A DNA stretch of 64,000 bases. Origin: Georgenia sp. SYP-B2076. Its GTDB lineage: Bacteria; Actinomycetota; Actinomycetes; Actinomycetales; Actinomycetaceae. Below, piece by piece: positions 6,845 through 25,181 of this stretch (the first letter of the stretch is position 1; every line of letters starts with the position of its first letter). The position numbers and the translations under genes are program-made. A model generated the notes under the pieces. The model saw only the letters and a program-made list of their open reading frames with translations, did no database searches and was not told the DNA's origin. The stretch spans positions 1 to 64,000 of the forward strand of contig NZ_RXOZ01000010.1 of the NCBI RefSeq assembly GCF_003991205.1, written 5' to 3'.

Positions 6845-9715
6845 TTACCGCTGGCCGGCGAGGAGCTGGGCGAGATGGACGCCGTGGCGGCCGGCGAGCT
6901 GCTCAGCCTGGGTGCGGCAGGAGAACCCGTCGGCGAGGTAGACGGTCTGCGGCCCGGCCTCGCGCAGGGCCGGGAGCAGGGCGTTCTCGGCCACGGCGAC
7001 GGAGGTGTCGTAGTGGCCGGCCTCCATGCCGAAGTTCCCGGCGAGACCGCAGCATCCGGCCAGCTGGGTGACCGTCGCCCCGGCCCGGGCGAGGAGCGCG
7101 GCGTCGGCGTCCCAGCCCATGACGGAGTGGTGGTGGCAGTGGGGCTGGGCGACGACCTCGACGCCCGCGAGGGACGGGGGCAGCCAGTCGGGGCCGGGTC
7201 CGAGCGGGGCGGGCGCGGTGAGGAGCTCGGCGAGGGTGTAGGTGTCGGCCGCGAGCATGGGCGCGCGGGGGTCGTCCGGCAGGAGGTCGACCATGTCGGA
7301 GCGCAGCACCGCCAGGCAGGACGGTTCGACGCCGACCACCGGGATGCCGTTCGCGGCGTAGGGCGCCAGGACGCCCAGCAGGTGCGTCAGCCGCTTCTTC
7401 GCGCCGTCGAGCTGGCCGGTGGAGATCCACGTCAGGCCGCAGCAGGCCTGCTCGTCGGGGACGATGACGGTGTACCCGGCGCCCTCGAGCACACGGGCGG
7501 CCGCCTTCGCGCCGGTGGTGTCCAGCGTCTCGGAGAACGTGTCCGCCCACAGCACGACGAACCGCGGCTCGCCGGCCCCGTCCGCGCCTCCCGGCCGGGC
7601 GGCGTCGTCCTTCGCCCACCAGGAGGAGAAGCGCTCCTCGGCGAAGGTCACCATCTGGCGGCGCGGGTCCATCCCACCGCCCCAGAGCACGGCCTTGGCC
7701 ACCGGCCGCACGGACAGGACCGTGTTGGCCAGCTTCGCCAGGGCCGGGACCTTGGTGACGAGGGCCGACCAGCGGGGCAGCTGGCCCAGGAGGTAGTGGT
7801 TGCGCGGGCGGACCTTGCCGGCGTAGGCGCGGTGGAGCACCTCGGACTTGTACCGGGCCATGTCGGTGCCGGTGGGGCAGTCCGCGGAGCAGGCCTTGCA
7901 GCTCAGGCACAGGTCGAGCGAGTCCAGGACGGCCGGGGAGTTCCAGTCCGTGACGAGCGAGCCGTTGGTCAGCTCCTGGAGCACCCGGGCGCGGCCGCGG
8001 GTGACGTCCTTCTCGTCCTTCGTGGCCTGGTAGCTGGGGCACATGAAGCCCCCCGCGCCGGAGTTGTCCGCGCGGCACTTGCCGACGCCGGTGCACCGGT
8101 GCACGGCGGTGGTGAAGTCCCCGCCGTCCTCGGCGAACGCGAACCCCCGCCGCGCGGGGGTGGGCAGGGCGTGCGGGCGCCGGAGGTCGGCGTCGAGCGG
8201 GCGGGGGTCGACGACGATGCCGGGGTTGAGGTGGCCCGCGGGGTCGAACAGGGCCTTGACCTGCCCGAAGAGGTCGATGACCTCGGGCGCGTACATCCGC
8301 GCGAGCAGCTCCGAGCGGGCCCGCCCGTCGCCGTGCTCGCCGGAGAGGGACCCGCCGTAGGCCACCACCAGGTCCGCGCTGGCCTCGAGGAACTCCCGGG
8401 ACGGCCCGACGCCGGCCGGTGTCTCCAGCGGCAGGTCGAGCCGCACGTGCACGCACCCGTCGCCGAAGTGCCCGTACAGCAGCCCGTCGACGCCCCGGTC
8501 GCTCATGAGGGCGGCGAAGTCACGCAGGTAGTCCCCGAGGCGCTCCGGCGGCACGGCGGCGTCCTCCCAGCCCGGCCAGGCCGGCGCACCGGCCGGGGTG
8601 CGGCCGCCCAGCCCGGCGCCGTCGGCGCGGATGCGCCACAGCGCGGCGGCCTGCTCCCCCGCCGGGACCACCCGGGCGGCGCTCGTGCCGCCGTCGGCCG
8701 CCAGCGCCCGCGCCCGCGCGAGCACGTCGGCGTCGGACTCGCCCTCGCCGGCGCCGACCTCGATCAGCAGCCAGCCCGCGCCGGCGGGCAGCTCGGGCAC
8801 CGCGCCCGGGCCCCGGTGGCGCCGGACGACGTCGACGAGCCGGGCGTCGATGCCCTCGACCGCCAGCGGGTGGTGCCTCAGCAGCGCGGGGACGGCGTCC
8901 GCGGCCGTGGGCATGTCCGGGTAGCCGAGCGCCACCAGCACCGGCGCGGTCGGCATCGGCACCAGGTTCACGGTGGCCTCGAGCAGCGTGACGAGCGTGC
9001 CCTCGGTGCCCACGAGCATCTTGGCCAGGTCCTGGCCGTGCTCGGGCAGGAGGTGCTCGAGGGAGTAGCCGGAGACCTGGCGGCCGAAGCGGCCCAGCGC
9101 CGTGCGGATCGTCGCCAGGTTCGCCTTGACCAGCCGGTCCAGGCCGGGCACGACGCCCAGCGCCCCGGTGCCCGCGCCGGCGGTGAAGCGCCGCCCGGTG
9201 CCGTCGACGACGTCGAGGGAGGTCACGTTGTCGGCCGTGCGCCCGTAGGCCACGGCGTGCGGGCCGCACGCGTTGTTGCCGATCATCCCGCCCAGCGTCG
9301 CCCGGTTCTGCGTCGACGGGTCGGGGCCGAAGCGCAGCCCGTGCGGCCGGGCCACGGCCTGCAGGCTGGACATGACCACGCCGGGCTGGACGACGGCGGT
9401 CCGCGCCTCCGGGTCCACCGAGACGATGTGGTTCATGTGCCGGGAGAAGTCGAGCACCATGCCCGTGCCCACCGCGTTGCCGGCCACCGACGTGCCGCCG
9501 CCGCGGGCGGTGACCGGCACGCCCAGGCGCCGGCCGACGTCGAGCGCCGCGAGCGCGTCGTCGGCGTCCCGGGGGGCGACGACCACGCGGGGCGGGACCC
9601 GGTAGTTCGAGGCGTCCGTGGAGTACTCCGCCCGACGCCGAGCGGAGTCGTCGACCTCGCCATCGACCGCCGCGCGAAGGGCCGCTGCGACGTCATTCCC
9701 GGTGACCGTGCTCAC
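6845..9715 (-). CDS. FAD- and Fe-S-binding D-2-hydroxyacid dehydrogenase (YdiJ-like, candidate D-2-hydroxyglutarate dehydrogenase)
   Basis: About 956 residues. The N-terminal half is a PCMH-type FAD domain (VTARGGGTSVAGNAVG, IGNNACGPHAVAYG) with an FAD-oxidase C domain (GEHGDGRARSE). Then come ferredoxin-like clusters (CTGVGKC, CLSCKACSADCPTG) and CCG cysteine-rich repeats (QACCGLTW, AGCCGLAGNFG). This architecture is that of E. coli YdiJ, reported as a D-2-hydroxyglutarate dehydrogenase, and of D-lactate dehydrogenases. An HglS-type gene in the same island, whose product would be D-2-hydroxyglutarate, favours the former. GTG at 9715 matches where homologues begin; another in-frame GTG is at 9742. 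It lies 115 bp behind MarR. Confidence 0.85.
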   Translation of the reverse strand: MSTVTGNDVAAALRAAVDGEVDDSARRRAEYSTDASNYRVPPRVVVAPRDADDALAALDVGRRLGVPVTARGGGTSVAGNAVGTGMVLDFSRHMNHIVSVDPEARTAVVQPGVVMSSLQAVARPHGLRFGPDPSTQNRATLGGMIGNNACGPHAVAYGRTADNVTSLDVVDGTGRRFTAGAGTGALGVVPGLDRLVKANLATIRTALGRFGRQVSGYSLEHLLPEHGQDLAKMLVGTEGTLVTLLEATVNLVPMPTAPVLVALGYPDMPTAADAVPALLRHHPLAVEGIDARLVDVVRRHRGPGAVPELPAGAGWLLIEVGAGEGESDADVLARARALAADGGTSAARVVPAGEQAAALWRIRADGAGLGGRTPAGAPAWPGWEDAAVPPERLGDYLRDFAALMSDRGVDGLLYGHFGDGCVHVRLDLPLETPAGVGPSREFLEASADLVVAYGGSLSGEHGDGRARSELLARMYAPEVIDLFGQVKALFDPAGHLNPGIVVDPRPLDADLRRPHALPTPARRGFAFAEDGGDFTTAVHRCTGVGKCRADNSGAGGFMCPSYQATKDEKDVTRGRARVLQELTNGSLVTDWNSPAVLDSLDLCLSCKACSADCPTGTDMARYKSEVLHRAYAGKVRPRNHYLLGQLPRWSALVTKVPALAKLANTVLSVRPVAKAVLWGGGMDPRRQMVTFAEERFSSWWAKDDAARPGGADGAGEPRFVVLWADTFSETLDTTGAKAAARVLEGAGYTVIVPDEQACCGLTWISTGQLDGAKKRLTHLLGVLAPYAANGIPVVGVEPSCLAVLRSDMVDLLPDDPRAPMLAADTYTLAELLTAPAPLGPGPDWLPPSLAGVEVVAQPHCHHHSVMGWDADAALLARAGATVTQLAGCCGLAGNFGMEAGHYDTSVAVAENALLPALREAGPQTVYLADGFSCRTQAEQLAGRHGVHLAQLLAGQR

Positions 9716-9830
9716 CGGCGGCAGTCTGGCACGGCGCGGCACGGGCGGGCGGGCCGGACCGGTGCGTGGACGTCGGACGCGCGGGCGGCCCGGCGGCCGA
9801 CGCGCAGGTCACGGCCTCGGGCGCACGCCG

Positions 9831-10325
9831 TCACGGCTTGTGCCCCAGGTGCGGGTCGTCCGCGGCGACGATCCGCTGGAGCATCTCCACCAGCATGGTG
9901 CGTTCCCCGGGGCTGAAGGGCGCCAGGATCTCCTCGCTCGACTCGCGCGAGGCGCGCACGGCCCGGCGGTAGACCGCCCGCCCCTCGTCCGTGATCGCGA
10001 TGGTCTTCATCCGCCGGTCCGTCGGGTCGTCGTGGGTCTCCACGAAGCCGCGCCGGTAGAGGCGCTCGACGATCCCCTTCGTCGTGGCGGCGTCCGACCC
10101 GACGCTGCGTCCCAGGCTGTTCTGGGAGTCGGGACCGGAGCGCACGAGGCTGGCCAGCGTGGCGAACTGGATCACGGAGAGCCCGGTGTCGTCGGCGTGC
10201 TGGAACGCCGCGGAGCCGAGCTGGTGGGCGCGGCGCAGCAGGTAGCCGATGTTCGAGTGGAGGTCGTAGTCGGCGTCGGGCCCGGCCATGTCGTGGCCGG
10301 GGTGCTGGATGTCCGTGCTGGTCAT
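9831..10325 (-). CDS. MarR family transcriptional regulator
   Basis: A 164-residue protein with a MarR winged helix: LHSNIGYLLRRAHQLGSAAF, the recognition helix region SVGSDAATTKGIVERLYRRG, and the wing THDDPTDRRMKTIAITDEG. ATG at 10325 is preceded by GAGGAAGAG and overlaps the stop of a 76-codon ORF by four bases. It closes a long run of overlapping genes carrying the molybdenum hydroxylase and transporter, so a ligand-responsive role for this island (aromatic acid ligands are common in MarR) is likely but inferred. Confidence 0.92.
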   Translation of the reverse strand: MTSTDIQHPGHDMAGPDADYDLHSNIGYLLRRAHQLGSAAFQHADDTGLSVIQFATLASLVRSGPDSQNSLGRSVGSDAATTKGIVERLYRRGFVETHDDPTDRRMKTIAITDEGRAVYRRAVRASRESSEEILAPFSPGERTMLVEMLQRIVAADDPHLGHKP

Positions 10326-10552
10326 CGGTGGCTCTTCCTCATCGAGGGTCGATTGTTGCGCGCCCACGGCACGGGCACTAGCCGGGGACGGGCACCGCGG
10401 CGTGCCAGACGGCCGACGGCGGAGCCGGGTCGCGGTGGATGGGCGAACGGCTCGCTCAGGTGATGCAGGTCGTCGAGGATGTCTTGCATGGTGCGGGCCG
10501 CCGGGCGGGGTCGGCCGGCCGGGTCTGGCAGGGTGGCCGGGGCGCGCGTCAT
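10322..10552 (-). CDS. Small hypothetical protein, coupled between FUSC-like and MarR genes
   Basis: A 76-codon frame starting at ATG 10552 with a four-base overlap with the stop of the FUSC-like gene, and ending with a four-base overlap with the MarR start. It contains MQDILDDLHHLSEPFAH followed by a basic Pro/Arg tail. The double ATGA overlap is the main argument for it being real; the sequence has no domain I recognise. It may only serve translational coupling. Confidence 0.5.
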   Translation of the reverse strand: MTRAPATLPDPAGRPRPAARTMQDILDDLHHLSEPFAHPPRPGSAVGRLARRGARPRLVPVPWARNNRPSMRKSHR

Positions 10553-11562
10553 GCCGGCCGCACCCGCCGCACCCACCCCGGGCGCGGCCGCGCGGCGTAG
10601 CAGACGATCAGCACGATGACGGCGCCCACGACGTTGAGGCCCACCCGGACCATGCCCTCGTACCAGTCGTGCGTGAGCGGGAAGTCCCCGGCGATGAGCA
10701 GCACGGGCGGCGCGGTCACGGCCCACCACAGGTAGCTCAGGGGCCGCAGCGCGAACGCCAGGAACACCAGGCCGGCCGCCACGAGGGCCATCGCGGCGGG
10801 CCCCGGGACGGCCGCCATGAGCAGCGCGACCAGCAGCGCCGCGACGGTGTTCCCGAGCAGCCGCTGGGCCAGCCTGACCCGCGTCGCGGAGGGCGTGGGC
10901 CGGACCGAGAGCAGCACGGCCGTGACGAGCCAGTGCCCGCCGTAGATCCCCAGCGGCGAGACCAGTGCCAGGGCCACGGCCACACCGACGGACGCGACCC
11001 GCCGCGCCGTCCACGAGGGCCCGGGCGCCCCTGCCGGGGGCGCCGGGGCCGCAGCCGCGGGAGAGCGCCGGATCCTGGTCGCGAACGTCGCCAGCGCGAC
11101 GACGAGCGCGCCGGTCAGCTCCCAGAGGGCCGGGAGGCTCGTCGAGCCGGAGGTCATGTCCGTCCGCAGGCCGAGCAGCAGGAGCGCCAGGGCGGCGGTC
11201 GTGCCGATCGACGGCACGGTGAACCCCAGCAGGGCCGCGGCCACCACGGCGATCGCCACGGCCAGCTGGTCGCCGCCGAGCGCGGTGACCGCGAGGGACG
11301 AGGCCGTCACGGCCGAGGTCCGCACCAGGAGCGCACGCGTCGCGGCGGCGGGAGCCTCGGGGATGCTCGGCAGCGCCACGAGGATCATCGACAGCACCAC
11401 CCGCGCCGCCTCGTCCGCACGCCCGGTGCGGGCGCCCACCAGCAGCGCGCCACCCACCGCGACGGCCAGCGCGGCGCTCAGGCCCCACGTGGGCGCACCG
11501 GCGGGCCGGGTCAGGCTGTGGCGGTTGAGCGCGGCCCGCAGCCGCGCTGCGACGTTGCGCAC
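10549..11562 (-). CDS. FUSC-like integral membrane protein
   Basis: A 337-residue membrane protein with two blocks of hydrophobic helices (about residues 28-155 and 195-330) separated by an Ala/Pro hydrophilic linker, the duplicated layout of FUSC/aromatic acid exporter proteins. RLAQRLLGNTVAALLVALL in the second half resembles the conserved FUSC motif. GTG at 11562 lies 18 bp behind the molybdenum hydroxylase small subunit. In an aromatic-heterocycle operon it could export surplus substrate or intermediates (inference). Confidence 0.75.
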   Translation of the reverse strand: MRNVAARLRAALNRHSLTRPAGAPTWGLSAALAVAVGGALLVGARTGRADEAARVVLSMILVALPSIPEAPAAATRALLVRTSAVTASSLAVTALGGDQLAVAIAVVAAALLGFTVPSIGTTAALALLLLGLRTDMTSGSTSLPALWELTGALVVALATFATRIRRSPAAAAPAPPAGAPGPSWTARRVASVGVAVALALVSPLGIYGGHWLVTAVLLSVRPTPSATRVRLAQRLLGNTVAALLVALLMAAVPGPAAMALVAAGLVFLAFALRPLSYLWWAVTAPPVLLIAGDFPLTHDWYEGMVRVGLNVVGAVIVLIVCYAARPRPGWVRRVRPA

Positions 11563-11580: not shown

Positions 11581-12075
11581 TCAGGAGCCCACGCTCTGCC
11601 CGGCCTCGAGCACCGCGTCCACGATGCCGGTGTACCCGGTGCAGCGGCAGATGTTGCCCGAGAGGGTCTCGCGGACCTCGTCCTCGGCGGGTGGCTGGGT
11701 GCACCGCCCGAGCAGCTCGCAGGCCGCCACGACGATCCCCGGGGTGCAGAACCCGCACTGCAGCCCGTGGTGCCGGCTGAGCGCGCCGCGCAGCCGGGCG
11801 GCGTGCTCGTTGTCCTCGAGGCCCTCGACCGTGGTGACCTCGCTGCCGTCCGCCTGCGCGGCCAGCATCAGGCACGCGCGCACGGACCTGCCGTCGACCA
11901 TGACGGTGCAGGCCCCGCAGACCCCCTGCTCGCAGCCCAGGTGCGTCCCGGTCAGGCGCAGGTGGTCCCGCAGGAAGTCGGCCAGGCTCAGCCGCGCCGG
12001 GACCGTGCGGTGCACGGCCGCGCCGTTGACCGTCGCCCGGACGTCGACCTCGCTACCGCCAGGAATCTCGTTCAT
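11581..12075 (-). CDS. Molybdenum hydroxylase small subunit, two [2Fe-2S] clusters (CoxS/XdhC-type)
   Basis: A 164-residue protein with the plant-type ferredoxin cluster motif GCEQGVCGACTV (Cys48, 53, 56) plus Cys68, then the all-helical domain with LQCGFCTPG (Cys107, 110) and NICRCTGYTG (Cys143, 145). All eight cluster ligands of the xanthine oxidase family are present. It passes electrons from the Mo centre to the FAD subunit. ATG at 12075 overlaps the stop of the FAD subunit by four bases. Confidence 0.95.
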   Translation of the reverse strand: MNEIPGGSEVDVRATVNGAAVHRTVPARLSLADFLRDHLRLTGTHLGCEQGVCGACTVMVDGRSVRACLMLAAQADGSEVTTVEGLEDNEHAARLRGALSRHHGLQCGFCTPGIVVAACELLGRCTQPPAEDEVRETLSGNICRCTGYTGIVDAVLEAGQSVGS

Positions 12076-12932
12076 GACTGCTCCTTCAGCTCTGCGAGCG
12101 CGCGGGCGTGGGCCTGCGCGGCGGCCTGTGCGAGCGCACCGGCGGCCACATCTCGTACGTGGTCGACGTCGTCGACGCCGGGCTCGAGGTCCGCCGTCAC
12201 CGAACGCGCCCACGGCTCCCAGTCGCGGTCCGGGAGGTCGCGTCCGGTCGCCTCCACGAGGACGGGGGTCTCCCCCGCGCTCAGGAGGCTGGCGCGCACG
12301 CTCTGGGCGCGGCCGTCCGCGTCGGTGCCGACGAGGACGGCGGCGCCCGCGATGGCGTAGTCGCCGTGGCGGTGCGCGTGCTCGACGAACCCCCAGCCCT
12401 GCCGGGGGCCGCGGTCCGGCACGCTGACCCAGGTGATGAGCTCGTCGTGCTCCAGCACCGTCTCGTAGTGCGCCTCGAAGAGGTCCTCCGCCGGGATCGT
12501 CCGGCGTCCGCGCTCCAGCGAGTCGGCGTGGACCTGGGCCCCGAGCAGCACCATCGCGGACGGCAGCTCGCCCGCCGGGTCGGCGTGCGCGAGGGCGCCG
12601 CCGAGGGTCCCCCGGTTCCGGATGGCGACGTGCCCGATGTGCGAGGCCATCTCCGGCAGGACGGGATGACGGTCCGCGAGGGTGGGGTGCTCGATGAGGT
12701 CGCGGTGGGTCAGGAGCGCCCCGAGGATCACCTGGCCGTCGTCGTCGAACGAGCGGCGCAGCTCGCGCAGCCCGCCGAGGTCGACCACGAGCTCCGGCCG
12801 CGCGAGCCGCATGTTCATGAGCGTGAGGAGGTTCTGGCCCCCGGCGAGCGCCTTCGCGCCCGGGTCCTGGAGCGCCTCGAGGGCCTCCTCGACGGTCCGT
12901 GCCCGCAGGTAGCGGAACGGTGCCGGCTTCAT
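12072..12932 (-). CDS. Molybdenum hydroxylase medium subunit, FAD-binding (CoxM-type)
   Basis: A 286-residue PCMH-type flavoprotein. KALAGGQNLLTLMNMRLARP and IRNRGTLGGALAHADPAGELP are the two conserved FAD loops (AGGQS and TxGG types), followed by the CO_deh_flav_C-like domain (SLLSAGETPVL). It starts with ATG 12932, overlapping the large subunit stop (ATGA), and ends overlapping the small subunit start, so the three subunits are translationally coupled. Confidence 0.95.
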   Translation of the reverse strand: MKPAPFRYLRARTVEEALEALQDPGAKALAGGQNLLTLMNMRLARPELVVDLGGLRELRRSFDDDGQVILGALLTHRDLIEHPTLADRHPVLPEMASHIGHVAIRNRGTLGGALAHADPAGELPSAMVLLGAQVHADSLERGRRTIPAEDLFEAHYETVLEHDELITWVSVPDRGPRQGWGFVEHAHRHGDYAIAGAAVLVGTDADGRAQSVRASLLSAGETPVLVEATGRDLPDRDWEPWARSVTADLEPGVDDVDHVRDVAAGALAQAAAQAHARALAELKEQS

Positions 12933-15253
12933 GCCCGGCTCCGTGCGCGCACGGCCCGGCGGACGTCCGCCGTCGCCACGGGGGTCGACCGGACGTGGAA
13001 CCCGTCGCCGACCGCGTCGTCGACGGCGGAGGCGACGGCGGCGTACGCCGCGATGGTGCCGCTCTCGCCCGCCCCCCGGACGCCGATGGGGTTCTCGGGC
13101 GTCTCCACCGCGAGATGCCGGATGCGCACCCGCGGCACCTCGCCCATGGCGGGGACCTGGTAGGAGAGGAACGTCGTCGACAGGGGCTGGCCGTCGGGCC
13201 CGTAGGCGAACTCCTCCGTCAGCGCGCCCCCGATGCCCTGGGCGACCCCGCCGGACACCTGACCGGCGACCACGACGGGGTTGATCTCCGCCCCGCCCTC
13301 GTGGGCGACCGCGTAGTCCAGGACGCGCACGACGCCGCTCGCGGGCTGGATCCCGACGACGGCGGCGTGGACCCCCATGGTCCAGGTCACGGTCCGGGGC
13401 CGGAAGACGTGGGTGACGTCGAGCTGCGTCGCGAGCCGCTCGCCGGCCCCGCCGGGCCCGAGGGCGGCCGCGAGCTCCGCCCACGTGTACTCCCGGTCGG
13501 GCGCCTGGAACGTGCCGGCCGCGTAGGTCACGGACTCCGCCGGCGCGCCGGTCAGCAGCGCGACGACGCCGGCCGCGCGGGTGAGGAGCTCGCGGCCCGC
13601 GAGGTGCACGGCCGACCCGGCCAGGACGGCCGACCTGCTCGCGAAGGAGCCGACGCCGAACTCGAGGAGGTCGGTGTCGGCGCGGGCGTAGCGCACCTGC
13701 CCGAAGGGCACCTCGAGCGCGTCCGCGGCGACCTGGGCGAAGGAGGTCTCGTGCGACATCCCGGCCGAGGCGGCGCCGGTGACGACGACGAACCCTCCGC
13801 CTGGGTCCAGCCGCACGCGGGCGGCCTCCCACGGCCCCCGGCCGGTGGCCTCGATGTAGGAGGCGAGGCCGTAGCCGATCTCGAGGTCGGGGTGGGCGGC
13901 GGCGTACGCCGCGACCTGCGCGCGCGGGAGCAGCTCCAGGACGGCGTCCAGGCAGGCGACGTAGTCCCCGCCGTCGTAGGCGATCGGGACCCCGTCGCGG
14001 TAGGGCAGCGGGCGCTCGTACGGCATGTCCTCGGCGCGCAGCAGGTTGCGCCGCCGGATCTCCTCGGGCGTGAGGCCGACGGCGGCGGCGGCCGCGTCGA
14101 GGCTGCGCTCGAGGGCGAAGGAGGCCTCCGGGCGGCCGGCGCCCCGGTACTGGGCGACGATGCACTTGTTCGTCATCGCGGCCCGGCCCCGGATCCGGGC
14201 GGCCGGCACGCGGTAGGGCCCGAGGAGGTGGATCCCGGTGTTGGCCACGATCCCGCCCACCCACAGGCTGCCGGAACCGATGTCGACGACGAAGTCGTCC
14301 TCCCACCGCAGGATCCGCCCCTGAGGGTCGACGCTGAGCCGGGCGTCGTGGACCTGGTCGCGTCCCTGGGCCGCCGCGGTGAGGTTCTCCTGGCGGTCCT
14401 CGATCCAGGCGACCGGGTGCCCGGTGGCGCGGGCGAGCGCCGCCAGCACCACCTCCTCGGCGTAGACGTTCGCCTTGGACCCGAACCCGCCGCCCACGTC
14501 GGGGACCGCCACGCGGACCGTGTCGGCGCCGACGCCGAGGGCCCCGCACACGGCCTGGCGCACCATGTGGGGGATCTGCGTGGAGGTGCGCACCTCGAGC
14601 CGGTCACGCTGCGGGTCGTACCAGGCGTGGACCCCGCGGGTCTCCATCGGGACCGCGCCGTGCCGGCCCATCCGGTACCGGCCCTCGACCGTGACCGCGT
14701 CCGGCGGCAGCTCGGCGGGGCCGAACTCGATGGCGATGCGCCCCGCCTCGTTGTCGGCGGTCCCCGGGTGGACCCGGGGGCTGCCCGGCGTCAGCGCCGC
14801 CTCGGGGTCGACCACGGCCGGGCGGGCCGCGTAGCGCACGTGCACGAGCTCGGCGCCGTCCTCGGCGGTGTACCGGTCCTGCGCGATGACCGCGGCGATC
14901 GGCTGGCCCACGTAGGTGACGTGGTCCTCGGCGAGCACGTAGATCTCCTGCGGGAACATCTCGAAGCCGGCGGCCTCGGCGAACTCGGGCGAGGGGCGGG
15001 TGAGGACCTCGATCCGGTTCATGGCGAGCCCCAGGTCGGCGGCCGTGTACACCCCGACGACGCCGGGCACCGCGAGCGCCTGGTCGGCGTCGATGCCGAG
15101 GATCTCGGCGGCCGCCTCCCGGGACCGCACGAAGGCCACGTGGTACGCCCCCGCCGTCCCGTCCGCGACGTAGCTGCCCTGTCCCGTGAGGAAGCGTGCG
15201 TCCTCCCGGCGCGGGAGCGAACGACCGACGAGCGAGGCCTCCGGCTCGTTCAC
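12929..15253 (-). CDS. Molybdenum hydroxylase large subunit (MCD-binding, form-II CoxL-like)
   Basis: A 774-residue xanthine-oxidase-family catalytic subunit. Visible are the N-terminal domain (RREDARFLTGQGSYV), the Mo-cofactor region VPDVGGGFGSK, the active-site loop QYRGAGRPEA near 368-377 and the catalytic Glu in VRGAGESGTI near 730. True aerobic CO dehydrogenases carry AYRCSFR in the active-site loop; here YRGAGR marks a form-II hydroxylase acting on some other carbon centre such as an N-heteroaromatic ring. GTG at 15253 overlaps the preceding permease stop. No cofactor-maturation gene of the CoxF/XdhC type is in the window, but a CoxG-like gene lies in the divergent arm. Confidence 0.93.
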   Translation of the reverse strand: MNEPEASLVGRSLPRREDARFLTGQGSYVADGTAGAYHVAFVRSREAAAEILGIDADQALAVPGVVGVYTAADLGLAMNRIEVLTRPSPEFAEAAGFEMFPQEIYVLAEDHVTYVGQPIAAVIAQDRYTAEDGAELVHVRYAARPAVVDPEAALTPGSPRVHPGTADNEAGRIAIEFGPAELPPDAVTVEGRYRMGRHGAVPMETRGVHAWYDPQRDRLEVRTSTQIPHMVRQAVCGALGVGADTVRVAVPDVGGGFGSKANVYAEEVVLAALARATGHPVAWIEDRQENLTAAAQGRDQVHDARLSVDPQGRILRWEDDFVVDIGSGSLWVGGIVANTGIHLLGPYRVPAARIRGRAAMTNKCIVAQYRGAGRPEASFALERSLDAAAAAVGLTPEEIRRRNLLRAEDMPYERPLPYRDGVPIAYDGGDYVACLDAVLELLPRAQVAAYAAAHPDLEIGYGLASYIEATGRGPWEAARVRLDPGGGFVVVTGAASAGMSHETSFAQVAADALEVPFGQVRYARADTDLLEFGVGSFASRSAVLAGSAVHLAGRELLTRAAGVVALLTGAPAESVTYAAGTFQAPDREYTWAELAAALGPGGAGERLATQLDVTHVFRPRTVTWTMGVHAAVVGIQPASGVVRVLDYAVAHEGGAEINPVVVAGQVSGGVAQGIGGALTEEFAYGPDGQPLSTTFLSYQVPAMGEVPRVRIRHLAVETPENPIGVRGAGESGTIAAYAAVASAVDDAVGDGFHVRSTPVATADVRRAVRARSRA

Positions 15254-18917: not shown

Positions 18918-19301
18918 TCAGTCGGCCACCACGGCGACGGCGTCGATCTCGACCTTGTTGCCGGGGTTCAGCCCGCAGTAGATCGTCGTCCGGGCCGGGT
19001 AGGGCTCCACCATCGCCGCATCATAGACAGCGTTCATCGCCGCGTAGTCGCCCCGGTCCACGAGGTAGACACGCACCGAGACCACGTCCGACCAGGACGA
19101 GCCCGCCGCCTCCAGGACGGAGCCGAGGTTGTCCAGCGTCTGGCGGGTCTGGTCGCCGACGTCGTCGCCGACCAGCCGGCCCGTCCGCGGGTCGGTGCCG
19201 ACCTGGCCCGAGAGGACCAGGAGCGGGCCCCGCCGCACGGCCTGGGAGTACGCGGCGCGCGGGGTGGGCGCGTCGCTCGTCGAGACGGCCTCGGACCTCA
19301 T
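18918..19301 (-). CDS. RidA/YjgF-type enamine/imine deaminase
   Basis: A 127-residue RidA fold protein with YSQAVRRGPLLVLSGQVGTDP, VYLVDRGDYAAMN, the conserved substrate-carboxylate Arg in YPARTTIYCGL and the C-terminal VEIDAVAVV. RidA proteins hydrolyse reactive enamines/imines to keto acids and ammonia. ATG at 19301 overlaps the stop of the upstream small membrane protein, so this start is preferred over an in-frame GTG at 19310. In this island it could act on the 2-imino acid released by the enamidase-like enzyme (inference). Confidence 0.93.
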   Translation of the reverse strand: MRSEAVSTSDAPTPRAAYSQAVRRGPLLVLSGQVGTDPRTGRLVGDDVGDQTRQTLDNLGSVLEAAGSSWSDVVSVRVYLVDRGDYAAMNAVYDAAMVEPYPARTTIYCGLNPGNKVEIDAVAVVAD

Positions 19302-19546
19302 CGCCCCCACCTCCGCTGCAGCGCGAGGCCGGCCGCCGCGCCCAGCAGCGCGGCCACCAGGGCGCCGGCCGACGTCCGGTCGGCCGGCGCCGCGGGCGGG
19401 CGGGGAGCGGGCTCCACGGTCACCGGGTCCTCCGCGTGCCGCGCGGCCGGCGGGTGCTCGGCCGGAGCCGGCGGGCCCTGCCGGCGCAGGGCCGGCGGCG
19501 CCCCGAGCGCCGCGCTGCCGGGCTGCGGGTAGGGCGGCGCGCTCAT
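19298..19546 (-). CDS. Small Pro/Ala-rich protein with one C-terminal membrane helix
   Basis: An 82-residue protein: 60 residues of Pro/Ala-rich linker, then a predicted membrane helix (TSAGALVAALLGAAAGLAL) and a basic end (QRRWGR). ATG at 19546 overlaps the LLM stop and its stop overlaps the RidA start, so it is translated as part of the unit. The CoxG-like protein of the divergent arm ends in a very similar tail-anchor (LAGAVFGWSLGRSLQ), which may mean both are membrane tethers for the pathway. No family recognised. Confidence 0.7.
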   Translation of the reverse strand: MSAPPYPQPGSAALGAPPALRRQGPPAPAEHPPAARHAEDPVTVEPAPRPPAAPADRTSAGALVAALLGAAAGLALQRRWGR

Positions 19547-20538
19547 GACAGGCTGTCCGCGATCTCGGCGAAGGTGCGGATCGTGGCCTCCTTGCTCTGC
19601 CCGGGGCGCACGAACGGCACGATCGAGACCTGGTCCACGCCCAGCCCCTTGATGTCCCGGAGCCGCTCGGCGCACTCGTCGGGCGTCCCGGCCAGGGCGA
19701 AGAGGTCCACCAGGCCGTCCGGCACGAGATCGGCGTGGGCGGCCTCGGTGTTCATGTGCTCGTAGTAGTTGTAGGTCTCCTTGATCCGGTCCACCGCCGC
19801 CTGGAGCGAGGGGTCGATGGGCGCCGGGAGGGGGCGGATCGCGACCCGGGAGACGTGGGCGCGAACCAGGTCGCGGGCCTCGGTGCGGTCGTCGTTGATG
19901 GCCGTGGGGGTCCACAGGACGATGTGCACGTCGGAGAGCGACTTGCCCACCTCCTTGGCGCCGGACTCGATGGTCTTCAGCGCCGCCTCGATGAACTCGG
20001 GCGCGGTGCCCACGAGCACGATGACCCCGTCGGCGATCCGGCCGGAGAGCTTGAGGATCTTGGGGGCGGAGGCCGCGATGTAGATGGGCACCTCCTGCGG
20101 CTCGGGGAGCCACCCGAGGCGGAACGTCGCCCCGCTCGTCCCCTCCTTGACCTCCCCGCCCCGGAAGAGGGTCCGCAGGTCGTCGACGGACTCCTCGAGC
20201 TCGGCGAGCTTCTGCGGCTTGAGACCCATCGTGCGCAGCGAGGAGTCGCCGGTGCCGATGCCGAGGCGCGCGCGCCCGCCGGTGTACTCGTGGAGGGACG
20301 CCCAGAACGAGGCGAGGACGGAGAGGTGCCGCGTCGACGCGTTCGTCACGCCGGTGCCGAACGTGATCCGCTCGGTGCCGACCGCCGCGGCCCCCATCGT
20401 CAGCGAGGACTCCCGCCAGATGTTCTGGGAGTCGCCGAACCACACGCTCTCGTACCCCAGCGACTCGCACAGCTGCACGTACTCGCGCATGTCGTCGATC
20501 GGCTCGGTCGGGAAGAGGCCAATACCCTTGCTCAGCAC
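19543..20538 (-). CDS. LLM-class (Mer-like) oxidoreductase, probably F420-dependent
   Basis: A 331-residue bacterial-luciferase-like TIM barrel. IGLFPTEPIDDMREYVQLC, the non-prolyl cis-peptide region GTGVTN and RARLGIGTGDSSLRTMG align well with methylene-H4MPT reductase (Mer) and F420-dependent relatives rather than with FMN-dependent monooxygenases of the RutA type. GTG at 20538 is preceded by AAAGGGG; longer in-frame extensions lack a binding site. It is the first gene of the minus-strand arm and is divergent from the CoxG-like gene. A reductive (F420H2-consuming) role is inferred from family and from the F420-dependent G6P dehydrogenase homologue nearby; a flavin monooxygenase role cannot be excluded. 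Confidence 0.85.
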   Translation of the reverse strand: MLSKGIGLFPTEPIDDMREYVQLCESLGYESVWFGDSQNIWRESSLTMGAAAVGTERITFGTGVTNASTRHLSVLASFWASLHEYTGGRARLGIGTGDSSLRTMGLKPQKLAELEESVDDLRTLFRGGEVKEGTSGATFRLGWLPEPQEVPIYIAASAPKILKLSGRIADGVIVLVGTAPEFIEAALKTIESGAKEVGKSLSDVHIVLWTPTAINDDRTEARDLVRAHVSRVAIRPLPAPIDPSLQAAVDRIKETYNYYEHMNTEAAHADLVPDGLVDLFALAGTPDECAERLRDIKGLGVDQVSIVPFVRPGQSKEATIRTFAEIADSLS

Positions 20539-20607
20539 AGTCGTTACCCCTTTGTCGTCGTTGCGCCGGGCACCGGACGCTAGCCGAGGCTGCGTGCCTC
20601 GAGCAAC

Positions 20608-20623
20608 TGTAGGTGCACTTACA
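20608..20623. promoter_or_regulatory. Operator-like palindrome in the divergent promoter region of the catabolic island
   Basis: TGTAGGTGCACTTACA is a 16-bp palindrome with one mismatch, centred in the 295-bp region (20539-20833) between the Mer-like gene and the CoxG-like gene. It is a good candidate binding site for the MarR protein of the island or another dimeric regulator controlling both arms. No other gene or clear promoter hexamers were found in this region. Confidence 0.5.
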
Positions 20624-20833
20624 AACGTGACCCTCTCATTGCGGACCGTCTGAACGCAACGGGCGGGCCGCTTCCCACGGGTTCTCGTTCGACACGGTTC
20701 CCAAGAACGGCGGCCTGCGGTACGTTGACCGCCACGGAGCGGCACTGCGTCGCTCCGGGCGGCACCCACGAGGTCGAGCAGACGCCGATGTCAAGACCGT
20801 TCGTGTTCCCATGACTTTCCCGAAAGGTTCGCG

Positions 20834-21454
20834 ATGGAGCTCACCAACACCTTCGACGTGGCGGCCACGCCGGACGTCGTCTGGCAGACGGTCGGCGACA
20901 TGCGCCAGGTCGCGCTCTGCCTGCCGGGCGCGGTCATCGAGTCGCAGGACGGCGACACGTACCGCGGCCGCGTCCAGGTCAAGGTCGGCCCCATCTCCAT
21001 GGGGCTCGGCGGGACGGCCACCGTCGTCAGCCGCGACGACGCGGAGCGCCGCATGGAGGTGCGCATCCTCGCGGAGGACCTGCACGGGCAGGGCACGGTC
21101 GAGGCGACCATGGTGGTTTCCGCCGTCCCCGCGGGGGCGGCCACGACGGTCACGATCGTCACGGCCATGCAGCTCGGCGGCAAGGTCGCCCAGTTCGGGT
21201 CCGGCCTCGTCACGCAGGTCTCCGGCCGGATCGTGCGGCAGGTCGCGAAGCGGATGGGCGCGCTCGTCGAGGCGGCCCAGACCACGGCGCCGATGGGCGA
21301 CCGCGCGCCCGCACCACCCACCCCCGGCCGCACCTCCGCGGGGCGCACCGCTGCACGCCCCCGGACCGCCGCGGCCGCCCACCTGGCCGCCGTCGCCCTC
21401 GCCGGCGCGGTCTTCGGCTGGTCCCTGGGCCGGTCGCTGCAGCCCGCCCGCTAG
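20834..21454 (+). CDS. CoxG-like SRPBCC protein with C-terminal membrane anchor
   Basis: A 206-residue protein. Residues 1-150 are a CoxG/SRPBCC domain (MELTNTFDVAATPDVVWQTV, CLPGAVIES, VKVGPISMGLGGTATV). After a Pro/Ala linker, residues 180-203 form a hydrophobic segment followed by RSLQPAR. CoxG proteins recruit molybdenum CO dehydrogenases to the membrane or aid their function. Here the Mo enzyme is encoded in the divergent arm, so it probably serves that hydroxylase. Start ATG has AAAGG upstream. First gene of the plus arm, 62 bp before the amidohydrolase. Confidence 0.88.
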   Translation: MELTNTFDVAATPDVVWQTVGDMRQVALCLPGAVIESQDGDTYRGRVQVKVGPISMGLGGTATVVSRDDAERRMEVRILAEDLHGQGTVEATMVVSAVPAGAATTVTIVTAMQLGGKVAQFGSGLVTQVSGRIVRQVAKRMGALVEAAQTTAPMGDRAPAPPTPGRTSAGRTAARPRTAAAAHLAAVALAGAVFGWSLGRSLQPAR

Positions 21455-21516
21455 CCGCGCACCTCCGGGACAGGGCCGTCACGCGGCCGTCCCGATACAC
21501 AACCACGGGAGAGACC

Positions 21517-22707
21517 ATGAAGACGCTCATCGACTCCATCGGGGTCCTCGCCACCGGGGAGGTCGGGGCGCCGCCGCTGCGCGACACCAACCTGCTCATC
21601 GAGGACGGGGTGGTGACGGGCGTCGGCGTCGACGTCTCCTCGCCCGACCGCGTGCTCGACGCCGGGGGCCTCACCGTCATCCCGGGGCTCGTCGACGGCC
21701 ACGTGCACCCGACCTTCGGGGAGTGGACGCCCGCCCAGAACGCGATCGGGTGGGTCCGCAACTACCTGCACGGCGGCACGACGACGATGGTCTCGGCCGG
21801 CGAGCTGCACATCCCCGGCCTCGACTTCACCGCCCTGACCCCCGAGCTCGTCGTGTCGATCGCCACCGTGTCCCGGCACACCACGGCCCGGATGCGCCCC
21901 TCGGGCGTCAAGTCCGTCGCCGGCACGGTCCTGCTCGTCCCGGGGATGACCGAGGGCCACTTCGACCGGCTGCAGGCGGAGGGCGTGACCCAGGCGAAGT
22001 TCATCTTCTACGACTGGAACCTGCTCCACACGGGTGAGCCGGCCCAGTACATGACGTGGTGCCACGAGCGCGGCATCACCGTGAAGATGCACTCCGGCGG
22101 GGTGTCGCGGTCGGGCTCCAGCCGGGTCGCCGGGTTCGACATCGTCGCCGCCGTGGGCCCGGACATCGTCGGCCACATCTCCGGCGGTCCCATCCCCATG
22201 CCGGACGACGACATCGCGCAGGTCGTCGACCAGCTCCCGGGCACCGCGCTCGAGGTCTGCAGCTCGATGAACTACCGGGCCACCGCCTTCGTCGTCGAGC
22301 AGCTCATCGAGCAGGACTCCCTGGCCCGGCTGACCCTGGGCACGGACACGCCCGGCGGCACCGGCGTCATCCCCCGCGGGATGCTCCGCAACATCTGCAT
22401 GCTCGCCTCGATGTGCGGCGTGGCCCCCGCCGACGCCGTCGCCGCGGCGACCGGCACCACCGCGCGCGCCCACGGCCTCGACGTCGGCGTGCTGGCTCCC
22501 GGCCGCCCGGCGGACCTCGTCGTCCTCGGGCCCATCACCGGCTCCCTCGGCGCGGACGCGCTCGAGTGCTTCGCGCTGGGCGACCTTCCCGGCATCGCCG
22601 CCGTGTTCGTCGACGGCGAGCCGCTGGTCGACGGCCGCAGCGAGCAGACCCCGCCCCCGCGTCAGTCGATCACGTGGCGCGTCCCGAGCGCCGCCCTCAC
22701 CTACTAG
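21517..22707 (+). CDS. Enamidase-like amidohydrolase (metal-dependent, cyclic enamide/lactam hydrolase)
   Basis: A 396-residue amidohydrolase. Zinc-ligand candidates are His62 and His64 (GHVHP), His192 (VKMHSGG), His220 (VGHISGG) and Asp277 (LGTDTPGG). Blocks YLHGGTTTMVSAGELH, RPSGVKSVAGTVLL, GVIPRGMLRNICMLASM and LGDLPGIAAVFVDGEPLV match, in order and at similar spacing, enamidase of Eubacterium barkeri, which hydrolyses 1,4,5,6-tetrahydro-6-oxonicotinate in nicotinate fermentation. The bridging Glu recalled for that enzyme is not obvious; Lys161 (QAKFIF) lies next to the equivalent place. It lies between CoxG-like and F420-dependent genes, so a ring-opening role is likely; substrate inferred. 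Confidence 0.82.
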   Translation: MKTLIDSIGVLATGEVGAPPLRDTNLLIEDGVVTGVGVDVSSPDRVLDAGGLTVIPGLVDGHVHPTFGEWTPAQNAIGWVRNYLHGGTTTMVSAGELHIPGLDFTALTPELVVSIATVSRHTTARMRPSGVKSVAGTVLLVPGMTEGHFDRLQAEGVTQAKFIFYDWNLLHTGEPAQYMTWCHERGITVKMHSGGVSRSGSSRVAGFDIVAAVGPDIVGHISGGPIPMPDDDIAQVVDQLPGTALEVCSSMNYRATAFVVEQLIEQDSLARLTLGTDTPGGTGVIPRGMLRNICMLASMCGVAPADAVAAATGTTARAHGLDVGVLAPGRPADLVVLGPITGSLGADALECFALGDLPGIAAVFVDGEPLVDGRSEQTPPPRQSITWRVPSAALTY

Positions 22708-22718
22708 GACGGATCTCC

Positions 22719-23723
22719 ATGCCACTTCGCCTGGGCTACAAGGCCTCCGCCGAGCAGTTCGGTCCCGCGGACCTCATCCGGTTCGGCGTCGCCGCCGAGG
22801 ACGCCGGCTTCGACTCGGTGTTCATCTCCGACCACCTGCAGCCGTGGCGGCACGACGGCGGGCACGCGCCCGCCGCGCTGCCGTGGCTCGGCGCGCTGGG
22901 GGCGAGCACCGAGCGGATCGTCATGGGCACGTCGGTGCTGACCCCCACGCTGCGCTACCACCCCGCCGTGGTCGCCCAGGCGTTCTCCACGCTCGGGCAG
23001 CTGTTCCCCGGGCGCATCGTGCTCGGCATCGGCTCCGGGGAGTCCCTCAACGAGGTGCCGCTAGGTATCGAGTGGCCGGACGGCAAGGAGCGGTTCGCCC
23101 GGCTGAAGGAGGCCCTGCTGCTCATGCGGCAGCTGATGACGCAGGAGCGGGTCACCTTCGAGGGCACCTACTACCGCACCAAGCTGGTCACCATCTACGA
23201 CCGTCCCGAGACGCCCGTGCCGATCTACGTCGGGGCCTCCGGGCCGTCGGCGACCCGGCTCGCCGGCCGCCTGGCCGACGGGTTCATCACGACGTCGGGC
23301 AAGCCCGACACCCTCTACCGCGACACCCTGCTGCCGGCGCTGGCCGAGGGCGCCACCAAGGCCGGGCGCGCCCTGGACGACCTCGACCTGCTCATCGAGA
23401 TGAAGGTCTCCTTCGACCCCGACGCGGACCGCGCCCTGCAGGACACCGCGCACTGGGCGGCGCTGGCGCTCAAGCCGGAGGAGAAGACCGGGATCGAGGA
23501 CCCGATCGAGATGCAGCGCCTCGCGGACGCCCTGCCCCTCGAGCGGGCCGCGTCACGCTGGATCGTGTCCAGCGACCCGGACGAGCACGTCGCCCGGATC
23601 CGGACGTACCTGGACCTGGGCTTCCGTCACCTCGTGTTCCACGCGCCCGGCACGGACCAGGAGCGCTTCCTGCGCATCTACGGGTCCGAGGTGCTGCCCC
23701 GGCTGCGGGCGCTCGGCTACTAG
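22719..23723 (+). CDS. F420-dependent glucose-6-phosphate dehydrogenase homologue (FGD family)
   Basis: A 334-residue LLM-family protein close to M. tuberculosis Fgd1 throughout: LGYKASAEQFGP, SDHLQPWRH, GTSVLTPTLRYHPAV, GIGSGESLNE. Active-site equivalents Asp38, His39, Trp43 and Glu108 are in place, and the residues that in Fgd1 hold the sugar phosphate (Lys198, Lys259, Arg283) correspond to Lys195, Lys256 and Arg280. It should therefore reduce F420 with glucose 6-phosphate and supply F420H2. ATG 22719 lies 11 bp after the amidohydrolase stop. Such a housekeeping-type enzyme inside a catabolic operon suggests a local need for F420H2. Confidence 0.88.
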   Translation: MPLRLGYKASAEQFGPADLIRFGVAAEDAGFDSVFISDHLQPWRHDGGHAPAALPWLGALGASTERIVMGTSVLTPTLRYHPAVVAQAFSTLGQLFPGRIVLGIGSGESLNEVPLGIEWPDGKERFARLKEALLLMRQLMTQERVTFEGTYYRTKLVTIYDRPETPVPIYVGASGPSATRLAGRLADGFITTSGKPDTLYRDTLLPALAEGATKAGRALDDLDLLIEMKVSFDPDADRALQDTAHWAALALKPEEKTGIEDPIEMQRLADALPLERAASRWIVSSDPDEHVARIRTYLDLGFRHLVFHAPGTDQERFLRIYGSEVLPRLRALGY

Positions 23724-23819
23724 CCCGGCGCGCCGGACCCCGCCCCATCCACCACGCACCAGCGACCACCACCCGCCCCGCGAACCCGATCGATCCGACA
23801 CACAGAAGGAAGTCGAACG

Positions 23820-25181
23820 ATGTCTGAAGTCCTTCCCTGGCAGCTCCGGGCCGCCTTCGCGCGCAGCCTCTCCGACATGTACGGCACGGAGGTGCCCGCC
23901 TACACCACCCTCCTCGAGGTCTCCCACGAGGTGAACGCCGACGTCGTCGCGCGCCTCGGCGCCGGGGCGGAGCGGCTCGGCAGCATCGACCGCGTCACCG
24001 CCGAGCGGCACGGCGCCATCCGCCTGGGCACCCCGACGGAGATGGCCCAGGCGGCCAGGATCTTCGGGGCCATGGGCATGCACCCGGTCGGGTTCTACGA
24101 CCTGCGCGAGGCCGCCACGAGCGCGGCGGTCCCCGTCATCTCCACCGCGTTCCGGCCGATCGCCGCGGACGAGCTGGCCCGCAACCCGTTCCGCGTGTTC
24201 ACCTCCATGCTCACCCCCTCCGACCGGCGGTTCTTCCATGCCGACCTCCAGCAGCGGCTGGAGACCTTCCTGGGCGCCCGGGAGATCTTCCCGCCCGAGC
24301 TCCTCGCGCTGGCCGACCGCGCCGAGGCCGACGGCGGCCTGTCCGAGGCGGACGCCGCCCGCTTCCTCGAGCTCGCCACCGCCTCCTTCGAGCTGTCCCG
24401 GGAGCCCGTGGACCGGGCCTGGTACGACGAGCTGGAGGCCGTCTCCGCCGTCGCCGCGGACATCGGCGGCGTGGCCAGCACCCACATCAACCACCTGACC
24501 CCGCGAGTCCTCGACATCGACGACCTCTACCAGCGGATGGAGGCGCGCGGCATCACGATGATCGACGACATCCAGGGCCCGCCCCGCTGGGAGGGCCCGG
24601 ACGTCCTGCTGCGCCAGACCTCCTTCCGCGCCCTCGCCGAGCCGCGCGCCTTCCGCATGCCCGACGGGTCGATCGAGAGCTCGTCGCTGCGGGTGCGCTT
24701 CGGCGAGGTCGAGGCCCGGGGCATCGCCCTGACGCGGGAGGGACGGGCCATCTACGACCGCGCCGTCGCCGAGGTCGACGAGCGCTCCGCCGGTCTCACG
24801 GCGCAGGAGCGGCAGGACATCAACCGCGAGGTCTGGCGCCGCGAGTTCCCCGCATCGGAGTCCGACCTCGCGGCGAGGGACCTCGCGTACTTCACCTACG
24901 CCGTCGCCGACGGCGAGGTGGTGCGCGAGCCGATCGTCTACGAGGACTTCCTCCCGAGGTCGGCCGCCGGGATCTTCCAGTCGAACCTCACCGACGAGGG
25001 GTCCAAGGACGTCACGCAGGAGGGCGTCGCACGGGACGCCGACTGGATGGCCGGTGCGCTGGGACGCGAGCTCCACGACCCGTTCGACCTGTACGCGCGC
25101 CAACGCGAGGAGTCCCGGCGCGCGGCGGCCGCCCAGCTCGGCGTCCGGCCGGGCGAGCTGGAGGCCGTGACCGGCGCGTAA
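23820..25181 (+). CDS. 2-oxoadipate dioxygenase/decarboxylase family protein (HglS/YdcJ, DUF1338)
   Basis: A 453-residue protein with the family hallmarks RHGAIRLG (His64), STAFRPIAADELARNPFRVF, STHINHLTPRVLDIDD (His222 or 225), PDVLLRQTSF and RFGEVEARGIALT (Glu296). The two His and the Glu match the Fe(II) ligands of HglS, which converts 2-oxoadipate and O2 to D-2-hydroxyglutarate and CO2 in Pseudomonas lysine catabolism. AAGGAAG lies before ATG 23820. It ends the plus arm. No lysine-catabolic genes are nearby; instead the island has enamidase-like and hydroxylase genes, which suggests 2-oxoadipate arises from a ring (inference). Confidence 0.88.
   Translation: MSEVLPWQLRAAFARSLSDMYGTEVPAYTTLLEVSHEVNADVVARLGAGAERLGSIDRVTAERHGAIRLGTPTEMAQAARIFGAMGMHPVGFYDLREAATSAAVPVISTAFRPIAADELARNPFRVFTSMLTPSDRRFFHADLQQRLETFLGAREIFPPELLALADRAEADGGLSEADAARFLELATASFELSREPVDRAWYDELEAVSAVAADIGGVASTHINHLTPRVLDIDDLYQRMEARGITMIDDIQGPPRWEGPDVLLRQTSFRALAEPRAFRMPDGSIESSSLRVRFGEVEARGIALTREGRAIYDRAVAEVDERSAGLTAQERQDINREVWRREFPASESDLAARDLAYFTYAVADGEVVREPIVYEDFLPRSAAGIFQSNLTDEGSKDVTQEGVARDADWMAGALGRELHDPFDLYARQREESRRAAAAQLGVRPGELEAVTGA

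Follow-up and report, generated by a model that had tools for sequence, protein, structure and literature searches.

Nicotinate breakdown in Eubacterium barkeri proceeds through molybdenum (Mo)-dependent hydroxylation, 6-hydroxynicotinate reductase and enamidase, according to the parts of PMC9304392 that describe this pathway. Picolinate is handled differently in the pic route of Alcaligenes faecalis JQ135, in which PicB monooxygenase, PicC decarboxylase and ring cleavage by a dioxygenase lead to fumarate. The sections of PMC10142695 on which this account is based also name Arthrobacter, Streptomyces and Rhodococcus as Gram-positive users of picolinate, with the pathway and its genes studied in Alcaligenes faecalis. 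A third relevant system is the lysine route of Pseudomonas putida, whose HglS (DUF1338) was active on 2-oxoadipate only when seven 2-oxoacids were tried, as given in the portion of PMC7286885 used here. In this study, we describe a catabolic gene cluster in Georgenia sp. SYP-B2076 that is related to each of these systems. It occupies positions 6845-25181 of a stretch of 64,000 nucleotides (contig NZ_RXOZ01000010.1, positions 1 to 64,000; hereafter, the window), which has 73% G+C and belongs to a genome of 4.28 Mb.

Judged by its gene families and by related loci in other genomes, the cluster probably serves to import and degrade a C2-carboxylated pyridine, most likely picolinate, via reduction with F420H2, ring opening by an enamidase and 2-oxoadipate. 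It would thus be a new version of the hydroxylation-reduction-enamidase strategy of nicotinate breakdown. The predicted pathway shares with the E. barkeri fermentation Mo hydroxylation beside the ring nitrogen, a two-electron ring reduction and opening by an enamidase homologue. It differs in that an F420-type reductase would replace 6-hydroxynicotinate reductase, the carboxylate would be at C2, the product would be 2-oxoadipate rather than 2-formylglutarate, and the organisms are F420-making actinobacteria. With the pic system, as far as it is covered in the source cited above, the cluster would have in common 6-hydroxypicolinate as the first intermediate and a MarR regulator (PicR in pic). 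The cluster's Pfam matches, which were not supplemented by queries with Pic sequences, included no monooxygenase, decarboxylase or dioxygenase of the PicB, PicC or PicD type. The resemblance to the P. putida route lies in an HglS family protein with its HHE triad and Arg and in a nearby YdiJ-like dehydrogenase, with the difference that the predicted source of 2-oxoadipate is a pyridine ring and not lysine. Finally, the F420-dependent hydride transferases for picrate and dinitrophenol in Rhodococcus and Nocardioides, which are of the LLM type, add hydride from F420H2 to an electron-poor aromatic ring; the likeness to these enzymes is one of description, and the substrates differ. In the open PubMed Central literature, judged by title and start of abstract, no paper joined picolinate or enamidase to F420, none of the titles listed for picolinic acid degradation, alone or with oxoadipate, concerned this route, and those listed for homarine catabolism included nothing on pathway genes.

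The cluster is single and coherent, and its two divergent arms meet near 20.7 kb. From this center, the minus arm runs through LLM1, RidA, the substrate-binding protein, the ATPase, two permeases, MoL, MoM, MoS, FUSC_2, MarR and the FAD/Fe-S dehydrogenase, and the plus arm through CoxG, the enamidase-like amidohydrolase, FGD and HglS. The genes are as follows.

6845..9715, minus strand: FAD/4Fe-4S D-2-hydroxyacid dehydrogenase, YdiJ-like, predicted to convert D-2-hydroxyglutarate to 2-oxoglutarate (Pfam FAD_binding_4, FAD-oxidase_C, Fer4, CCG)
9831..10325, minus strand: predicted MarR-family regulator (Pfam MarR/MarR_2)
10549..11562, minus strand: FUSC_2 membrane protein, fusaric acid resistance-like (Pfam PF13515, 1.8e-14)
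11581..12075, minus strand: MoS, Mo hydroxylase small subunit, two [2Fe-2S] (Pfam Fer2, Fer2_2)
12072..12932, minus strand: MoM, Mo hydroxylase medium subunit, FAD (Pfam FAD_binding_5, 8.3e-45)
12929..15253, minus strand: MoL, Mo hydroxylase large subunit, predicted ring C6 hydroxylase (Pfam MoCoBD_1, MoCoBD_2, Ald_Xan_dh_C)
15250..16029, minus strand: NitT/TauT-type ABC permease 2 (Pfam BPD_transp_1)
16026..16820, minus strand: NitT/TauT-type ABC permease 1 (Pfam BPD_transp_1)
16817..17614, minus strand: TauB, NitT/TauT-type ABC ATPase (Pfam ABC_tran)
17665..18663, minus strand: TauA, NMT1-type substrate-binding protein (Pfam NMT1, 5.2e-21)
18918..19301, minus strand: RidA, Rid family imine/enamine hydrolase (TIGR00004, 112.4 bits, cut-off of 106.25 passed)
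19543..20538, minus strand: LLM1, Mer-like F420-type hydride transferase, predicted ring reductase (PDB 1f07, Mer, E 9.6e-39)
20834..21454, plus strand: CoxG-like protein (Pfam COXG, 3.2e-15)
21517..22707, plus strand: enamidase-like amidohydrolase, predicted cyclic enamide hydrolase (PDB 2vun, E 8.4e-78)
22719..23723, plus strand: FGD, also LLM2 (TIGR03554, 460.1 bits, cut-off of 420 passed)
23820..25181, plus strand: HglS, 2-oxoadipate dioxygenase/decarboxylase (NF050083, 715.3 bits, cut-off of 600 passed)

The genes named in an earlier, sequence-only reading of this DNA are all present, in frame and where it had placed them; the FUSC_2 membrane protein at 10549..11562 was absent from its gene list. 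What that reading had called an FGD homologue can be firmed to an FGD equivalog, its HglS-type protein passes an HglS cut-off, and its enamidase assignment held by both sequence and fold. The YdiJ-like protein falls far short of the YdiJ equivalog itself (403.1 versus a cut-off of 1350 bits, its best NCBIfam match).

From the gene families and the recurrence of the cluster, which are observed directly, we infer the reactions and the sequence in which they occur, as well as the substrate and the cofactor used by LLM1. In the first step, the Mo hydroxylase would use water to hydroxylate ring C6, converting picolinate to 6-hydroxypicolinate (in its pyridone tautomer), and the CoxG-like protein may dock the enzyme to the membrane. 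LLM1 would then transfer one hydride from F420H2 onto the unsaturated lactam to give 1,4,5,6-tetrahydro-6-oxopicolinate; attack at C4 would be a conjugate addition to an unsaturated lactam, which is plausible for F420H2. The cofactor could be recharged by the FGD of the cluster with glucose 6-phosphate. In the third step, the enamidase-like enzyme would cleave the cyclic enamide to an enamine/imine, which would shed ammonia, perhaps aided by a Rid protein, to yield 2-oxoadipate. Among six-membered cyclic enamide lactams, the one expected to hydrolyze to 2-oxoadipate is 1,4,5,6-tetrahydro-6-oxopicolinate or an N-alkyl form of it; this chain of reasoning combines established chemistry with inference. 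In the window, HglS would use iron and O2 to convert 2-oxoadipate to D-2-hydroxyglutarate, which the YdiJ-like dehydrogenase would oxidize to 2-oxoglutarate. In relatives, the last step would instead be carried out either by a thiamine pyrophosphate (TPP)-dependent 2-oxoacid dehydrogenase, mostly together with glutaryl-CoA dehydrogenase (GCDH), or by a TPP decarboxylase and a semialdehyde-type dehydrogenase, with a CoA-transferase in two of three loci.

The presumed ring-opening enzyme is a relative of enamidase and a predicted cyclic enamide hydrolase. Over residues 2-384 it aligns with the E. barkeri enamidase 2vun (phmmer E 8.4e-78), which is also rank 1 in a Foldseek search with the predicted model (TM 0.83, 35% identity). 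H62, H64, H192, H220 and D277, which we take to be the likely metal ligands (His/His/His/His/Asp), are kept in all 37 enamidase sequences when aligned with 2vun. The same 37 sequences carry R198 and R287. In 2vun these positions are occupied by Ile and Leu, which is also the pattern of five distant homologues from actinobacteria. These arginines may reflect a moved carboxylate. The suggestion is a lead only, because the predicted structure is unreliable in or close to the loops concerned: pLDDT is below 50 at 64-98, 197-202 and 278-284, likely active-site loops.

The use of F420H2 by LLM1 is predicted and is the best reading of its matches. Its nearest PDB relative by sequence is the F420-dependent Mer (1f07), and the top eight chains found by Foldseek with the predicted model (mean pLDDT 90.3) are all Mer. 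The 11 best NCBIfam models are F420 families, each under its cut-off; the best F420 LLM family, TIGR03842, gives 187 versus 295.45 bits. In addition, a Gly-Val motif (G63-V64) is retained in 31 of 31 LLM1 sequences; the part of PMC11094777 concerned with Mer describes Gly-Val as a cis peptide beneath F420. LLM1 is not a Mer equivalog, and scores under both cut-offs (169.4 versus 348.7 and 185.9 versus 276 bits).

F420 itself is probably available in every genome carrying the cluster, because CofD (TIGR01819) is above cut-off in 37 of 37 such genomes. In a control set of 14 genomes, TIGR01819 had matches in six and exceeded its cut-off in three. PF01933 had been tried as an F420 marker and was dropped as unspecific, as it also matches E. 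coli and nine other controls; the check was therefore redone with TIGR01819.

LLM proteins also include FMN monooxygenases, and two FMN-type members, 7bip and 6ket, are among the PDB matches of LLM1. LLM1 could thus be a flavin monooxygenase or an F420-independent enzyme like a pterin reductase, with oxidative ring opening in the style of RutA/RutC; RidA-type proteins occur with RutA. However, RutA is not among the LLM1 PDB matches at E ≤ 0.001, the best families and folds are those just described, and a hydrolytic enamidase and an FGD lie within the same cluster. We consider this alternative improbable and retain F420H2-dependent reduction.

To place these proteins in a wider context, genome contigs were scanned with an alignment of three enamidases. 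The scan gave 38 loci, of which 36 were kept; L066 and L067 were left out as weak, short matches at 39 and 51%. Apart from these 38, the distant loci L025-L029, which are enamidase-like at 36-37% identity and have no LLM1, were set aside as a different kind. Components were assigned at identity thresholds of 35-45%. The core, comprising the Mo hydroxylase, the NitT/TauT transporter, LLM1, CoxG and the enamidase, is syntenic in most of the 36 actinobacterial loci. Thirty of these loci span at least 19 kb. Both permeases were identified in 27 of them, as was LLM1; MoL, TauA and TauB were each identified in 26, MoM and MoS each in 25, and CoxG in 24. LLM1 orthologues (E ≤ 1e-60) occur in three of 394 genomes of the class, and these are the same three that have a close enamidase (E 2.1e-182 or better, 72-100% identity). 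At 1e-50 an enamidase is found in eight class genomes, and the other five reach only 37-38% identity. Because the two genes coincide in the same three genomes and are syntenic in most of the 36 loci, their association exceeds chance. In the window's own family, a window-type enamidase (1e-100) is present in one of 151 genomes, the window genome itself, so the cluster is accessory in this family and horizontal transfer may be its origin.

The strongest indication of the intermediate comes from the genes that accompany this core. Among the 36 loci, the E1 component of a TPP 2-oxoacid dehydrogenase occurs with GCDH in 18 and without it in three, HglS in three, and a TPP decarboxylase with an aldehyde dehydrogenase in three; nine have none of these. 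The E1, HglS and TPP-decarboxylase types are never paired in one locus. In Mycolicibacterium wolinskyi (L046), the enamidase gene is followed by a GCDH-like acyl-CoA dehydrogenase, a fused TPP E1 and a class III CoA-transferase. The acyl-CoA dehydrogenase matches 3sf6 (E 9.3e-240) and 1siq (4e-116), both deposited as glutaryl-CoA dehydrogenase, and the CoA-transferase is nearest to 2-methylfumaryl-CoA isomerase, under its cut-off. The TPP decarboxylase and an aldehyde dehydrogenase of the semialdehyde type are the neighbors in three other loci, those of Nocardioides daejeonensis, Streptomyces endocoffeicus and Planosporangium thailandense. The N. daejeonensis and Planosporangium loci add a CoA-transferase that scores best against the succinate-glutarate CoA-transferase family (366.2 versus 750 in N. 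daejeonensis, under cut-off), and the Planosporangium locus also has a GCDH homologue. HglS and a YdiJ-like gene follow directly in Sphaerisporangium and Nonomuraea, and in M. bacteremicum HglS and the enamidase gene are adjacent. Of the 37 cluster genomes, 35 encode one or more of E1, HglS and TPP decarboxylase, and seven of the nine loci lacking a module belong to genomes with an E1 elsewhere. E1 is found in 30 of 37 cluster genomes versus 57 of 394 class genomes.

2-Oxoadipate would be the simplest substrate common to the three exit types. Its role as a hub is well supported by the comparison, because relatives replace HglS with two unrelated modules that would also fit 2-oxoadipate, and this points to a C2-carboxylated ring as the starting compound. 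We lean towards a widespread, undescribed actinobacterial route in which pyridine carboxylates are reduced with F420H2, opened by an enamidase and channeled through 2-oxoadipate, with three unrelated exits to 2-oxoglutarate or glutaryl-CoA that can stand in for one another.

The comparison also bears on what the sequence-only reading had proposed. Its call for a search for co-occurrence of these families is answered by the syntenic core; its F420 context is strengthened by the FGD in the cluster, the Mer-type LLM1 and CofD in all cluster genomes; and its 2-oxoadipate hub gains from the exchange of exit modules. As to the substrate, a C2-carboxylated pyridine is upheld through the hub, and picolinate would be the likelier choice over, for example, N-methylpicolinate. 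Its combination of an anaerobic-style ring opening with an aerobic decarboxylase would apply just where HglS is the exit, in the window and three of the 36 loci; 21 of the 36 carry a TPP E1 in its place, 18 of them with GCDH. RidA, to which it had assigned the release of ammonia, may not be needed: the window type of RidA is in none of the 36 loci, and a different Rid protein is in at least eight, a lower bound, as many loci end next to CoxG.

The same exits bear on nicotinate. A route in the E. barkeri style, from 6-hydroxynicotinate through 1,4,5,6-tetrahydro-6-oxonicotinate to 2-formylglutarate, would share the enamidase and the Mo hydroxylase, and a methylcitrate (propionate) operon is present in the window at 29034-33329. 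This operon lies about 4 kb past HglS and encodes 2-methylcitrate synthase, methylisocitrate lyase, a PrpD-like protein and a GntR-type regulator. HglS, E1 and TPP decarboxylase, however, need a 2-oxoacid, which nicotinate would not yield. The methylcitrate genes resemble a standard prp operon, and homologues of the three enzymes are in none of the 36 related loci, so the operon is probably unrelated to the cluster. No gene for the lower route from 2-formylglutarate was noticed among the scanned proteins, where models specific to that route were not searched. Nicotinate was rejected as the lead reading on account of the exit modules and the missing methylcitrate homologues, and we regard it as quite improbable.

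The same chemistry could act on another C2-carboxylated substrate: homarine (N-methylpicolinate), from which methylamine rather than ammonia would be released, or a picolinate that is larger or carries substituents and enters at 6-hydroxypicolinate. The comparative evidence reaches 2-oxoadipate only, and in one locus (L057) the enamidase and LLM1 adjoin with no Mo hydroxylase homologue found within 10 kb. N-methylpyridinium rings are converted to pyridones by Mo enzymes, which would suit homarine. Against it, no demethylase or methylamine gene was found among the proteins scanned, and a NitT/TauT-type transporter fits a small acid better than a betaine. A substrate of this kind is unlikely, although worth keeping in mind beside picolinate.

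In the window, HglS is over the cut-off of NF050083 and under that of a second HglS model, NF049974 (386.6 versus 550). Its HHE metal triad and specificity Arg (H64, R68, the histidines of HxNHLTPR, and E296, aligned with 6w1g) are kept in four of four sequences; the roles of these positions are taken from the relevant part of PMC7286885. HglS is present in 34 of 394 class genomes, and with genomes of 6 Mb assumed, the probability that it lies by chance no more than about 20 kb from a particular gene is of the order of 3 in 10,000; it occurs in three of the 36 loci and in the window. The YdiJ-like protein has counterparts in two of the 36 (L048 and L051, 49% identity), directly after HglS.

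HglS is known from lysine breakdown, as is GCDH. The cluster might accordingly act on another compound, such as a lactam derived from lysine or pipecolate, with LLM1 as a dehydrogenase. A lysine route needs neither a Mo hydroxylase nor an enamidase, and none of the scanned window proteins was recognized as belonging to a lysine-specific upper pathway. We judge this reading very improbable and prefer a pyridine carboxylate as the source of 2-oxoadipate.

Several observations weigh against the proposed route. LLM1 exceeds no NCBIfam cut-off, FMN enzymes appear from rank 9 in its fold search, behind the Mer chains, and the catalytic Glu6 of Mer corresponds to Gly7 in 31 of 31 LLM1 sequences; these three points keep F420 binding by LLM1 at the level of a prediction. 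In Mer, a Glu6 to Gln exchange leaves 0.4% of kcat, as stated in the cited part of PMC11094777. LLM1 was not found in three of the 30 loci of at least 19 kb (L059, L063 and L065). In the enamidase, Lys161 stands in 37 of 37 sequences where 2vun carries a Glu, presumably at the bridging position; two alignments are one residue apart there, and the five distant actinobacterial homologues also have Lys. HglS has Arg380 in place of Val402 in the substrate loop of the P. putida enzyme. The searches with E1 and TPP decarboxylase name no substrate, and GCDH and the CoA-transferases are below all NCBIfam cut-offs. No exit module was found in L030, L031, L032, L038, L040, L044, L057, L058 and L060, of which L030, L038 and L040 are incomplete, and two of 37 genomes, the draft genome of L030 and the metagenome-assembled genome of L058, have none of the three exit types. 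HglS or TPP decarboxylase occurs in five of seven genomes without E1 versus eight of 30 with it, a difference that is not significant (Fisher p 0.07). An FGD lies beside the cluster, within 10-kb flanks, in none of the 36 related loci. The loci are phylogenetically related, many of them being mycobacterial, so that they do not represent independent draws, and the genomes of the class do not serve as a matched control.

If the route is correct, F420 would gain a role in the catabolism of natural N-heterocycles, and picolinate would have a reductive alternative to the oxygenase route. It would also provide a source of 2-oxoadipate other than amino acid breakdown, explain some HglS genes outside lysine breakdown, and predict what a Mer-like LLM family and a clade of enamidases, both common to many actinobacteria, do.

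Counterparts of the window MarR, RidA and FGD are in none of the 36 loci, which, with the two counterparts of the YdiJ-like protein, puts all four outside the conserved core. In FGD, K195, K256 and R280 match the phosphate site for glucose 6-phosphate (Lys/Lys/Arg); residue roles for the comparison of protein identities come from a part of PMC5352752. The genome has a second FGD elsewhere that scores higher than the cluster copy, so the latter is probably a dedicated F420 supply. MoL is below the cut-off of every one of the 13 NCBIfam Mo-enzyme models it matches, and on these scores a carbon monoxide dehydrogenase identity was rejected for the Mo enzyme. The CoxG-like protein is presumably a possible membrane anchor for the Mo hydroxylase. 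The best NCBIfam models for TauB are of the SaoA, taurine and nitrate types, and none reaches its cut-off. Of the 36 related loci, 22 have a FUSC_2 homologue; fusaric acid itself is a derivative of picolinate. A RAMA-domain protein at 5356-6738 of the window adjoins the cluster.

Some of the related loci depart from the common layout. In L057 (Amycolatopsis jejuensis, 7921-12185), where the enamidase directly adjoins LLM1 and Mo hydroxylase homologues were not found within 10 kb, the neighbors are an isochorismatase-family hydrolase and a second amidohydrolase; the shared core may be entered in another way here. L059 (Nocardioides daejeonensis, 496-20534) has the enamidase without LLM1 and another LLM about 8-9 kb off, which is over the cut-off of the F420 subfamily TIGR03559 (467.5 versus 335). 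It also has a distant Mo hydroxylase, an isochorismatase-family hydrolase, the TPP decarboxylase, aldehyde dehydrogenase and CoA-transferase, a thiolase and short-chain dehydrogenases/reductases. In L065, no LLM1, TauA or TauB was detected in the interval from CoxG to the first permease, as would be expected after a deletion, and the remaining cluster is retained. L026, L027 and L029 represent another type of enamidase-like cluster, at 36-37% identity, that has S and M subunits like those of Mo hydroxylases; a Mo large subunit was not found in them at 1e-8. L026 further contains a TRAP transporter and enoyl-CoA hydratase-like, PF06684 and ferredoxin-reductase-like proteins.

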